Origin: Spirochaeta lutea
GTDB taxonomy: Bacteria > Spirochaetota > Spirochaetia > DSM-27196 > Salinispiraceae
Assembly: GCF_000758165.1 (NCBI RefSeq)
Contig: NZ_JNUP01000064.1
Span: 124,001-188,000, forward strand
DNA: 64,000 nucleotides
Direction of reading: 5' to 3'
Of this stretch, positions 7,551 to 31,525 are shown piece after piece (within the stretch, counting starts at the first letter, position 1; every line of letters starts with the position of its first letter). The translations under genes were made by a program, and so were the position numbers. The notes beneath the pieces are model-generated. The model did not search any database. It had not been told where the DNA came from and was given only the letters and a program-made list of their open reading frames with translations.

Positions 7551-7667
7551 CTCCGGTCAAGCAATCTGCGGCACACCCATAGGCCGCCTACCGTTGCTCC
7601 CTTCCGGGCCTGGCGGAGTTTGGCGGTTACGAATTGCACAGCGCCTGACCTTCAACACTAAAGGGGT
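7541..7667 (-). ncRNA. ffs: Signal recognition particle RNA (4.5S-like)
   Basis: The minus strand contains the SRP domain IV signature CCAGGCCCGGAAGGGAGCAA, with the asymmetric and symmetric loops that bind Ffh M-domain, here closed by a GGAA-type tetraloop. The outer ends ACCCCTTTAG (7658-7667) and CTAAAGGGGT (7541-7550) pair perfectly, and inner pairs GGTCA/TTGACC and GCAAT/ATTGC extend the rod. Length is about 127 nt, a little longer than E. coli 4.5S RNA. A run of eight U follows the 3' end. It sits between the tRNA-Ser cluster and dnaX, a common location. Confidence 0.92.
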
Positions 7668-7673
7668 GAAAAC

Positions 7674-7760
7674 GGAGAGAGAGGGATTCGAACCCTCGGT
7701 ACCCGGATAGAGTACACACGCGTTCCAGGCGTGCACCTTCAACCACTCGGTCACCTCTCC
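7674..7760 (-). tRNA. tRNA-Ser(GGA)
   Basis: An 87-nt class II tRNA. Acceptor GGAGAGG pairs with the 3' CCTCTCC-type strand, there is a long variable arm, the T-loop is GTTCGAATC, and the anticodon loop CTGGAAC gives anticodon GGA. It reads UCC and UCU. It is the last tRNA of the leftward Ser/Arg cluster before SRP RNA. CCA is not encoded. Confidence 0.95.
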
Positions 7761-7791
7761 AGTTATTTTCTAATGGTACTCTCAAGCCGAC

Positions 7792-7878
7792 GGAGAGAGA
7801 GGGATTCGAACCCTCGGTACTGCAGAACAGTACAACGGATTTCGAGTCCGCCCGATTCAACCACTCTCGCATCTCTCC
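7792..7878 (-). tRNA. tRNA-Ser(CGA)
   Basis: An 87-nt class II tRNA with acceptor GGAGAGA, a long variable arm and T-loop GTTCGAATC. Anticodon loop CTCGAAA gives anticodon CGA, reading UCG. Its T arm and variable region are close to the neighbouring tRNA-Ser(GGA), suggesting local duplication. Confidence 0.95.
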
Positions 7879-7921
7879 ATTGGGGATGGCAGGTTGATCA
7901 CATCGGCCAGACTCCCCGCTA

Positions 7922-7995
7922 CGTACCCTAGAGGATTCGAACCTCCGACCTTCAGATCCGCAATCTGATGCTCTATCCAACTGAGCTAAGGGTAC
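7922..7995 (-). tRNA. tRNA-Arg(GCG)
   Basis: A 74-nt tRNA with acceptor GTACCCT/AGGGTAC and discriminator G, D-arm GCTCAGTTGGATAGAGC and T-loop GTTCGAATC. The anticodon stem TCAGA/TCTGA encloses loop TTGCGGA, giving anticodon GCG. It reads CGC and CGU. Bacteria usually read these codons with ACG (inosine); a GCG anticodon would avoid the need for A-to-I editing by TadA on this tRNA. Confidence 0.9.
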
Positions 7996-8006
7996 AAACC
8001 GTAATA

Positions 8007-8094
<88 letters not shown>

Positions 8095-8183
8095 AATGAA
8101 TTACACCTACATTTTTACTATGCCGCTGATTTTTTGGCAAGGCGGCTTATCCAGGGTACCCGCCAGTCCATCAGGAATAGTCC

Positions 8184-8268
8184 GGAGAGGGTGGGATTCG
8201 AACCCACGGTAGGGGACACCTACAACGGTTTTCAAGACCGCCTCCTTAAACCGCTCGGACACCTCTCC
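8184..8268 (-). tRNA. tRNA-Ser(TGA)
   Basis: An 85-nt class II tRNA, first in the leftward cluster. Anticodon loop CTTGAAA gives anticodon UGA, reading UCA and possibly other UCN codons. With GGA, CGA and GCU nearby, the cluster holds a complete set of serine isoacceptors. Confidence 0.95.
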
Positions 8269-11778: not shown

Positions 11779-12849
11779 ATGGTAAGCGATAAGGAAAAAC
11801 AAGTATTATCTCAAGAGAATGTTATGAAGGATTTCCCCAAGGTTGAACTCCATCGCCATCTTGAAGGAACCTTTTCCCTGGAAACTCTTTACAATATCTC
11901 CAAAAAAAACGGCCTGGATACACCCAATTCCTTTGAAGAGTTCAAAAAGGCTGTCCAGTTTCCGAAAAACGGGGATCCCGATTTTCTTCTTTTCCTTTCG
12001 AAATTTCGCACCGATTGGTACCGATCCTTCGATGATGTCTACCAAGTTGTGTACAACTCTGTAAAAGACTTCAAAGACGACGGCCTGCACTATATCGAAC
12101 TCCGATTTTCCCCTGAACATTTTTCATTACAGAACAATTTCAACCGCTTAGATATTACCAAGTTAGTTGTTGAAGCCGGTAATGCAGCCGCAGCGGAGAT
12201 TGGTGTTGAGTTAACCTACCTGCTTACCTTTAATAGAAGTAAACAAGAAGAGGAGGATATGATTTCCCTCTATAAGAAGCTCATGAATCTTGCTCTCCCT
12301 GAGGTGGTGGGAATTGATCTCGCAGGTGATGAACTCAACTTCCCCCCTGAGGGCTTTAAGCGCTTCTTTGAACTGGTGGATTCGGATGGTATACCTTCTA
12401 CTATTCACGCAGGTGAGGTGACACCCTCTTCCCAAATATGGACAGCCATAGACACTTTACATGCCAACCGCATTGGTCATGGCACCTCAGCGATAAATGA
12501 CCCCCAACTTCAAACCGTGCTCAAAGATCGGGGCATCGCCCTTGAGCAGTGCATAACATCTAACTACCAAACCGGTTCATGGGTGGATGAACAAAATCAT
12601 CCATTGGGGAGGCTTTTTAAATCTGGGGTCCCGGTTACGATAAACAGTGACGATCCGTTCATCCAGGATACAAGCCTTTCAGATGATTATAGAAAAACTG
12701 TCCGGTATTTTGATTTCGGCGTTGAAGAACTAAAAAAAGCAAACCACATTGCTATTGATGCGTCCTTTGTGAGTAAGGAACGGAAACTGTCCTTGAAAAA
12801 TGAATTCGATCGGAAGGTTCAGGCCTTTGTCACAAAATACGCTCTGTAA
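11779..12849 (+). CDS. add: Adenosine deaminase
   Basis: A 356-residue metal-dependent amidohydrolase converting adenosine to inosine in purine salvage. Motifs: VELHRHLEG (zinc-binding His pair), LAGDE, HAGEVT with the third His and catalytic Glu, RIGHGTS, and INSDDP with the metal-binding Asp pair. The family's adenine deaminase branch is close, so adenine as substrate is possible. AGAGGGA precedes the ATG. An in-frame ATG at 11824 would remove 15 residues. The gene converges on yigZ. Confidence 0.9.
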   Translation: MVSDKEKQVLSQENVMKDFPKVELHRHLEGTFSLETLYNISKKNGLDTPNSFEEFKKAVQFPKNGDPDFLLFLSKFRTDWYRSFDDVYQVVYNSVKDFKDDGLHYIELRFSPEHFSLQNNFNRLDITKLVVEAGNAAAAEIGVELTYLLTFNRSKQEEEDMISLYKKLMNLALPEVVGIDLAGDELNFPPEGFKRFFELVDSDGIPSTIHAGEVTPSSQIWTAIDTLHANRIGHGTSAINDPQLQTVLKDRGIALEQCITSNYQTGSWVDEQNHPLGRLFKSGVPVTINSDDPFIQDTSLSDDYRKTVRYFDFGVEELKKANHIAIDASFVSKERKLSLKNEFDRKVQAFVTKYAL

Positions 12850-31030: not shown

Positions 31031-31294
31031 TTAGTCGTCGTGTCCGTCAATGCGCTGGACTTCCACCCGCACATGGGTTAGAAGGGCTGCTGCAGCACCG
31101 ATAGCCGCGAGTACGGGTGCAAAGAGAGTCAAAGCTCCGCCAACTGCCACACCTGCAGTTACCGGGATCTCAAAAAGGACTTCACCGTTTTCTTTTTTTA
31201 TGGTGATTTTGCGTACATTGCCCTGATGAATAAGTTCTTTTATCCGCTCGACTAGTTCGCTACCGTTGAATTTAAACTCTTCTTTCTGGCTCAT
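31031..31294 (-). CDS. DUF4342 small protein
   Basis: An 87-residue protein matching DUF4342 by pattern: an N-terminal helix (LVERIKELIHQGNVRKITIKK), a strand pair (GEVLFEIPVTAGV), a Gly/Ala-rich hydrophobic segment (GALTLFAPVLAAIGAAAALL) that may be a membrane hairpin, and a short charged tail. Function unknown; some members carry an added UBA-like helix. AGGAGG lies before the ATG. A palindrome AGAAGTactataccACTTCT (31308-31327) overlaps a TATAGT box just upstream, and a leader RNA unit with its own promoter and terminator precedes that. Confidence 0.75.
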   Translation of the reverse strand: MSQKEEFKFNGSELVERIKELIHQGNVRKITIKKENGEVLFEIPVTAGVAVGGALTLFAPVLAAIGAAAALLTHVRVEVQRIDGHDD

Positions 31295-31307: not shown

Positions 31308-31327
31308 AGAAGTACTATACCACTTCT
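31308..31327 (-). promoter_or_regulatory. Palindrome overlapping a possible -10 box of the DUF4342 gene
   Basis: AGAAGT and ACTTCT arms flank an 8-bp centre containing TATAGT on the minus strand, 10 bp before the ribosome binding site. It could be a repressor operator or a small hairpin in the mRNA. The -35 region is poor. Confidence 0.35.
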
Positions 31328-31352: not shown

Positions 31353-31388
31353 AAAAAAAGTGCGGACAGTGTACCATTCTGTCCGCAC
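31353..31388 (-). terminator. Intrinsic terminator of the leader RNA
   Basis: Perfect 10-bp stem GTGCGGACAG/CTGTCCGCAC with a 9-nt loop; read leftward it is followed by TTTTTTT. No gene ends just before it, which is why a short RNA is proposed. Confidence 0.85.
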
Positions 31389-31490
31389 CATACCAGAAAC
31401 CACGACCTCTAACAGAGGATCACAGCTGAAGGAAAACCAACGGAATCCCTTCAAAGCATAACCAAAATCCACAGTCTTAGGAGACTTTGT
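31353..31490 (-). ncRNA. Candidate small RNA or structured leader upstream of DUF4342
   Basis: A predicted leftward transcript of about 138 nt, bounded by a good promoter (31497-31525) and an intrinsic terminator (31353-31388). In order it can form hairpin AGTCTcctaAGACT, a GAAGG/CCTTC stem, hairpin CCTCTgttAGAGG and the terminator. No plausible protein is encoded within it. Either it is a stand-alone RNA or an attenuator leader for DUF4342, whose start lies about 58 bp past the terminator. It does not match any riboswitch I recognise. Confidence 0.5.
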
Positions 31491-31496
31491 ACTGAC

Positions 31497-31525
31497 AATA
31501 TATAATACCGTACAAAAATAGTCAA
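31497..31525 (-). promoter_or_regulatory. Sigma-70 promoter of the leader RNA
   Basis: On the minus strand TTGACT, 17-bp spacer, TATATT. Expected transcription start is near 31490. It is divergent from the diaminopimelate decarboxylase-like gene. Confidence 0.6.

Follow-up and report, generated by a model that had tools for sequence, protein, structure and literature searches.

In Spirochaeta lutea, a promoter-like sequence, a run of possible small hairpins and a terminator precede a DUF4342 gene in the window (the whole stretch of 64,000 nucleotides that was analysed), which raises the question of whether the RNA between promoter and terminator is a leader of that gene or a transcript in its own right, and on what it might act. 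When the 191-bp element was compared by BLAST with 61 genomes, S. lutea among them, four matched, namely the own genome and three others of the family, and no homologue was found in the 57 genomes outside the family. These four family genomes are S. lutea (G000), a Spirochaetales MAG (G001, contig JAACWS010000022.1), a genome taken to be Salinispira pacifica (G002) and a Spirochaetaceae MAG (G003, contig SKVS01000383.1; genome 57 % complete). The features in S. lutea, in window positions, are as follows.

31520..31525, minus strand: -35 box TTGACT, of which TTGAC is invariant in all four genomes.
31497..31502, minus strand: -10 box TATATT, within GGTATTATATATT; the hexamer is the same in three of four genomes, with one substitution in G003.
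31353..31490, minus strand: putative small RNA gene of about 138 nt, its start placed about 7 nt past the -10 box and its end at the T tract.
31473..31486, minus strand: hairpin H1, AGUC-UCCUAA-GACU, with a CCU-containing loop; four pairs kept in four of four genomes.
31428..31452, minus strand: hairpin H2, its sequence different in every genome; judged by shuffle tests of fold stability.
31404..31421, minus strand: hairpin H3, GA-U-CCUCUGUUAGAGG-UC, bearing part of the invariant UGAUCCUC; stem kept in three of four genomes.
31389..31407, minus strand: core GGUCGUGGUUUCUGGUAUG, with complementarity to the hydC-like mRNA in its 5' region; it includes 16 consecutive invariant bases, TCGTGGTTTCTGGTAT.
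31360..31388, minus strand: intrinsic terminator hairpin with loop AAUGGUACA; the loop plus the first stem base, UGGUACAC, is invariant in four of four genomes.
31353..31359, minus strand: terminator T tract of 7 T, read from the sequence.
31031..31294, minus strand: DUF4342 gene (PF14242), judged to lie outside the element; apart from the RNA in G002.

The TTGACT and TATATT boxes that had been described are present with the stated spacing of 17 bp, and TTGAC as well as most of the -10 region is conserved in the relatives. The terminator is likewise as perfect as had been claimed (a 10-bp stem with a 9-nt loop) and occurs in all four genomes, where 100 % of its stem pairs are kept and 5 of the 10 have changed on both sides, that is, with compensation. 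Scanning for such signals is less informative: a promoter-consensus scan of 5 kb returned 10 promoter-like sites compared with a shuffle mean of 5.6 and thus could not by itself separate the element from chance, and a terminator scan with a loop limit of 8 missed this terminator with its 9-nt loop. The invariant stretches in the four-way alignment A3 include, among others, TTGAC, most of GGTATTATATATT, GTCTCCT, TGGAT, TGATCCTC, TCGTGGTTTCTGGTAT and the terminator loop TGGTACAC. As a separate observation, GGTATTATATATT (window 31497-31509) is identical in three of the four sRNA promoters and extends past the -10 hexamer, so it could be a regulator site.

The predicted fold of the whole RNA has a z-score of -4.0 in G000 (0 of 200 shuffles as stable), -4.9 in G003, -2.8 in G002 and -2.1 in G001 (5 of 200 shuffles as stable). 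Across the whole structure, the covariation score was reached by 0 of 500 shuffles and the count of doubly changed pairs by 6 of 500, while the count of pair types was reached by 452 of 500; when the structures were slid as a control, the paired fraction dropped to 26–44 %. Conservation differs among the three small hairpins, which had been proposed from the S. lutea sequence and are plausible as such. The pairs of H1 are kept, although this is weak evidence because three of the four never vary. H2 was matched in stability by 1, 0 and 2 of 1000 shuffles in G000, G001 and G003, respectively, but is weak in G002 (136 of 1000 shuffles as stable in the segment tested), and in the same genome the stem of H3 is broken, with three of its four counted pairs lost. 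Hairpin conservation in relatives, on which the preliminary description had staked its reading, holds for the compensated terminator stem and for H1, but not throughout for H2 and H3. As judged by these sequence comparisons, the promoter, the hairpins and the terminator are real and conserved.

The distribution of the element is narrow. The covariance model R1 matched 4 of 46 genomes of the order, with one copy each, and gave no match in the other 42; under stricter filters it matched 3 of 297 genomes in a sample of the class, G003 not being among the matches, and none of the other 294. A 31-base pattern with up to three mismatches occurred in 4 of 394 genomes of the class sample and was absent from the other 390; a strongly diverged relative could have escaped these searches. 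No second copy was found within the S. lutea genome. With respect to known classes, no Rfam family reached threshold in the interval; below threshold, with E values of up to 10 considered, only RUF6-5 (E 0.16) and the L20 leader (E 1.9) matched, and both were rejected. A T-box, considered in view of the UGGUAC motifs, was also set aside: there is no Rfam match, and the terminator is followed not by a fitting gene, such as one for an aminoacyl-tRNA synthetase, but by DUF4342 or, in the case of G002, by a gcvPB-like gene in its 3' part. Of the riboswitch, attenuator or independent small RNA of unrecognised class that had been envisaged, it is the independent small RNA that stands, with no Rfam family at threshold, but not the leader reading. 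The element is, on this comparative evidence, a real, lineage-specific sRNA that forms a new family of a known kind of RNA.

Possible targets were sought in the four genomes with a 17-base pattern, the core's reverse complement, allowing up to three mismatches; the reversed pattern served as a control. The search returned 42 places, the four RNA genes included, and the other 38 were scored. The counts for core-complementary sites and the reversed pattern were 13 v 13, 11 v 9, 8 v 15 and 10 v 10, and there is thus no overall genome-wide excess in the four genomes, since the counts are equal to or below the control in three of them and slightly above it in one. Five sites have at least 16 contiguous pairs, and three of these lie in sense 5' UTRs: that of a G003 gene for a thioredoxin-like [2Fe-2S] protein (PF01257; 21 contiguous standard pairs including G-U, 66 nt before the ATG, the best site of all), that of a membrane sensor-like gene in G000 (17) and that of superoxide reductase in G000 (16). 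The remaining two are located inside an open frame of G001 (17) and at a place in G000 without a nearby sense gene (16).

Some of the individual sites deserve a description of their own. In the superoxide reductase (PF01880) leader, L077:1501-1533 (G000:C1:52547), TTATACCAGAAACCAAG stands right before the Shine–Dalgarno sequence and 32 nt before the ATG, which makes this gene a possible second target. The membrane sensor-like gene, on the minus strand of L065 (G000:C60:60616-60632), has 15 exact core-complementary bases 34 nt before its ATG. A weaker site, with 10 contiguous pairs, is found 48 nt before the ATG in the leader L096:1172-1220 (G002:C1:3584071), whose gene product we take to resemble the anaerobic ribonucleotide reductase NrdD.

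The best match, in G003, led to the prediction of the same site in the other three orthologous leaders. The ortholog, a hydC-like gene, was found in all four genomes, and all four leaders bear the site: GUACCAAAAACCACGACC in G000, GUACCAAAAAUCACGACC in G001, GUACCAGAAAUCACGACU in G003 and GUACCAGAAAGCAUGAGA in G002, at -70, -71, -64 and -183, respectively, relative to the start codon. In G000, G001 and G003 the site directly follows a likely -10 box; in G002 the start codon was chosen by homology and ribosome site, and the frame is open further upstream, so that the site falls within the open frame. Outside the sites and the ribosome site, the leaders align poorly by eye. In G000 the hydC-like gene is the first of an operon that continues with a HATPase gene (PF02518), a small gene that matched nothing in Pfam, a HydB-like gene (PF01512) and a HydA-like [FeFe]-hydrogenase gene (PF02906), and that is divergent from a Rex-like gene (PF06971 and PF02629). 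The genes with PF01257, PF01512 and PF02906 are presumably HydABC, and the gene with PF06971 and PF02629 is presumably Rex. ORF starts give the same operon order in G001 and, combined with a reading of the first two small genes, in G003; for G002 they showed the Rex-like, HydC-, HydB- and HydA-like genes, whereas the two small ones were not called. These identities rest on Pfam for G000 and for the first genes of G003, and on ORF order elsewhere.

Over positions -4 to 14 of the core–leader duplex, 18 of 19 positions pair in G000, G001 and G002 and 19 of 19 in G003, the mismatch being at position 7 in G000 and G001 and at position 3 in G002. Two pairs have changed on both sides: position -4 is GC, GC, GU and UA, and position 14 is GU, UA, GC and GC, in G000, G001, G003 and G002, respectively. 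In the same order, the duplex energies, which ignore the folding cost of either RNA, are -28.0, -26.2, -34.4 and -26.2 kcal/mol; shuffled cores were as good in 1, 1, 0 and 0 of 1000 cases, and dinucleotide-shuffled leaders in 1, 3, 0 and 0 of 2000. The own-genome core gives the best energy for the G001 and G002 leaders and the joint best for those of G000 and G003, whose cores are identical. The core is predicted to be only 0.43-0.66 unpaired and the hydC leader site 70–93 % unpaired.

The hydC leader was also ranked among leaders of other genes of the same genome, which a simple ORF rule predicted within sampled stretches; the discovery genome G003 was left unranked. As good as hydC were 0 of 401 other leaders in G000, 1 of 177 in G001 and 0 of 339 in G002, which puts hydC at rank 1 of 402, 2 of 178 and 1 of 340, respectively; a smaller G000 sample agrees (0 of 370). 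These ranks are not fully independent, because the genomes are related. The one G001 leader that exceeds hydC does so slightly (-27.4 kcal/mol), and outside the G000 sample the sensor-like leader, at -30.3 kcal/mol, is better than hydC at -28.0, the superoxide reductase leader reaching -26.9 kcal/mol. The core complementarity to the hydC leader is present in four of four genomes, with two pair positions compensated, and the predicted hydC target is unusually well supported. A near-repeat of the pairing core, GUGGAUUUUGGUUAUG (window 31457-31472), is the same in three genomes but not retained in G002; no target emerged for it, and it was rejected as a second pairing module, with 87, 499 and 324 of 1000 shuffles as good.

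Two properties expected of a trans-encoded sRNA are found here, namely an own promoter and terminator without a fixed downstream gene, and conserved complementarity to an mRNA encoded elsewhere, the hydC leader in four of four genomes. The Hfq that an Hfq-dependent sRNA would require in its genome (PF17209) was not found in any of the four, with 5 of 14 control genomes positive in a search that a diverged Hfq could escape. In our estimation, the element probably encodes a free-standing, trans-encoded sRNA (about 138 nt) that has a promoter and a terminator of its own and whose core GGUCGUGGUUUCUGGUAUG pairs with the mRNA 5' region of the hydC-like/HATPase/HydB-like/HydA-like [FeFe]-hydrogenase operon.

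The sRNA would be transcribed from its own promoter and ended at its own terminator, and the hydC operon would start shortly before GCGUACCAGAAAGC in Salinispira pacifica, the invariant core then presumably pairing with the hydC leader in the cell. Such pairing may lower the translation or stability of the hydrogenase mRNA, which is the least certain part of the scheme; repression is somewhat favoured as the direction of the effect, with activation or stabilisation a serious contender. Candidate routes are repression by a bridge that reaches the ribosome site, and a change in mRNA stability that acts from the 5' end. A simple switch in leader structure is unsupported beyond a modest effect in G000, because blocking site 1 barely alters the predicted access to the Shine–Dalgarno sequence (0.49 to 0.34 in G000, 0.58 to 0.58 in G001, 0.58 to 0.60 in G003 and 0.34 to 0.29 in G002). 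The CCUC and UCCU segments of the sRNA are in the right order to reach the Shine–Dalgarno sequence and might assist repression. As a hydC-specific anti-Shine–Dalgarno element, CCUC was rejected, since 67 of 263 leaders in G000 are as good; against ribosome sites, 1 of 21 in G001 and 1 of 24 in G002 are as good, in samples that include hydC, which may be that one.

A second point of contact may involve the terminator loop. Each hydC leader contains a further GUACC, at -36, -37, -33 and -72 in G000, G001, G003 and G002, respectively, and the terminator loop UGGUAC may also touch it, six or seven pairs being possible by hand. The leader GUACCA at this second site is predicted to be 0.82-0.99 unpaired and the loop UGGUAC 0.94-0.98 unpaired. 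When the leader is folded together with the gene start, GUACC is predicted to lie in a hairpin loop whose stem sequence varies between genomes; in the fold of the bare G000 leader, the two GUAC motifs pair together instead. The match suggests a kissing contact between modelled loops, which may form first, and a complex that holds both contacts would have to bend, because, read 5' to 3', the order of the core and loop sites is the same in the two RNAs. It is possible, and we put it forward tentatively, that the RNA is a two-point, Hfq-independent riboregulator in which the terminator loop kisses the leader loop and the core forms a duplex along the 5'-terminal part of the mRNA, adding a post-transcriptional layer of control to the Rex-linked hydrogenase operon of a spirochaete family.

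Pairing with hydC would be compatible with a broader set of targets among enzymes sensitive to iron or oxygen, in which hydrogenase would be joined by superoxide reductase and anaerobic ribonucleotide reductase in a regulon that might serve, for example, iron sparing. The additional 5' UTR sites, in the superoxide reductase and membrane sensor-like genes of G000 and in the NrdD-like gene of G002, would fit such a regulon; however, each of them comes from one genome only and the search total does not rise above the control, and we regard this extension as rather doubtful.

An sRNA that binds a protein, as a sponge or in a housekeeping role, with the hydC match owed to chance or to some other constraint, would agree with the repeated UGGU motifs noted by eye and with the failure to find Hfq, or 6S RNA in seven genomes. 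6S RNA itself (RF00013) was rejected as an identity for the element, its covariance model having matched 0 of 7 genomes and nothing in the window, with 5 of 14 controls positive. Nevertheless, the leader carries the complement of the core rather than a copy of it, two pair positions change on both sides, and hydC holds its rank against 401, 177 and 339 sampled leaders, all of which makes the protein-binding alternative improbable in comparison with an sRNA that pairs with hydC.

The DUF4342 gene, whose Pfam assignment (PF14242) holds, begins at 31294, 58 nt beyond the T tract, just as had been estimated, and the gene order gcvPB-like, DUF4342, RNA, nspC-like is shared by G000 and G001. This proximity favours a cis-acting leader, riboswitch or attenuator, in which transcription would end early unless a signal allowed read-through. 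In G002, however, the locus consists of the gcvPB-like gene, the RNA with its promoter and terminator (12,673-12,816) and the nspC-like gene, and the sole DUF4342 gene found is at 2,993,629; the RNA is thus not a DUF4342 leader, because the two stand apart there. In G003 the contig stops just past the RNA, and the genome, 57 % complete, yielded no DUF4342. Conversely, DUF4342 is present in 7 of 46 genomes of the order, and the covariance search upstream of other DUF4342 genes that had been suggested as a check gave no R1 match near the gene in G002, G007, G023, G028 or G033, so that the RNA precedes DUF4342 in the relative G001 but not in G002 and four others. The description of the RNA as the leader before this gene is contradicted by both findings. 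In addition, the terminator is intact in all four genomes, no conserved anti-terminator pairing was seen by eye, and a leader would leave the hydC pairing unexplained. The leader alternative is largely refuted and very improbable, and the link between RNA and DUF4342 is, from the gene arrangements, mere neighbourhood. Nor is the RNA likely to be tied to the divergent nspC-like gene: 26 of 26 nspC loci of other families, with flanks of up to about 1.5 kb and some cut by contig ends, are without a gcvPB-like gene, DUF4342 or an R1 match.

The palindrome that had been noted before DUF4342, AGAAGT-GGTATAGT-ACTTCT (window 31308-31327), is present in G000 over a possible -10 box but absent at the equivalent place in G001. 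The literature search found nothing on DUF4342.

A short protein gene (frame VDFGYA...) with RNA features arising by chance has a negligible probability, since the frame, uninterrupted across the element in G000 and G003, has stops in G001 and G002, which refutes it in two of the four genomes, and the terminator shows stem-compensating changes.

As an sRNA directed at hydC, the element may be compared with several known systems. RyhB and FnrS are trans-encoded base-pairing sRNAs of enterobacteria, and the spirochaete RNA resembles them in its own promoter and terminator, in a seed complementary to 5' UTRs and in predicted metabolic targets with iron or oxygen sensitivity; it differs in having no Rfam match at threshold, in coming from four genomes in which Hfq was not found, and in a long pairing (19 positions) placed far upstream of the ribosome site. 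RNAIII of Staphylococcus aureus and the sRNAs with C-rich loops pair independently of Hfq and use hairpin loops as contact sites. Hfq independence, loop contacts and a CCU-containing loop that could meet Shine–Dalgarno sequences would be shared with these, whereas the lack of an Rfam match and a CCUC segment that is not hydC-specific in G000 set the present RNA apart. CopA/CopT-type systems are loop–loop antisense pairs; the possible kissing of two hairpin loops combined with a linear duplex recalls them, but here the loci are separate, the complementarity is short, and the loop and linear sites are not collinear.

Among the titles and abstract openings listed by a literature search, with most subscription papers outside its scope, none describes such an sRNA in free-living spirochaetes. 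In the distant spirochaete Borrelia burgdorferi, sRNAs have been reported (PMC5216591 and PMC6041397), showing that spirochaete sRNAs exist; they were compared with this RNA through Rfam only. If correct, the present reading would give free-living spirochaetes a new family of sRNA whose conserved target can be named, and it predicts that bacteria in which no Hfq is recognisable control an [FeFe] hydrogenase at the RNA level. Salinispira pacifica has been isolated and grown (PMC4511686), and the sRNA prediction is therefore testable. Elsewhere in the window, a small SRP RNA adjoins five tRNA genes on the minus strand (7552-8268).
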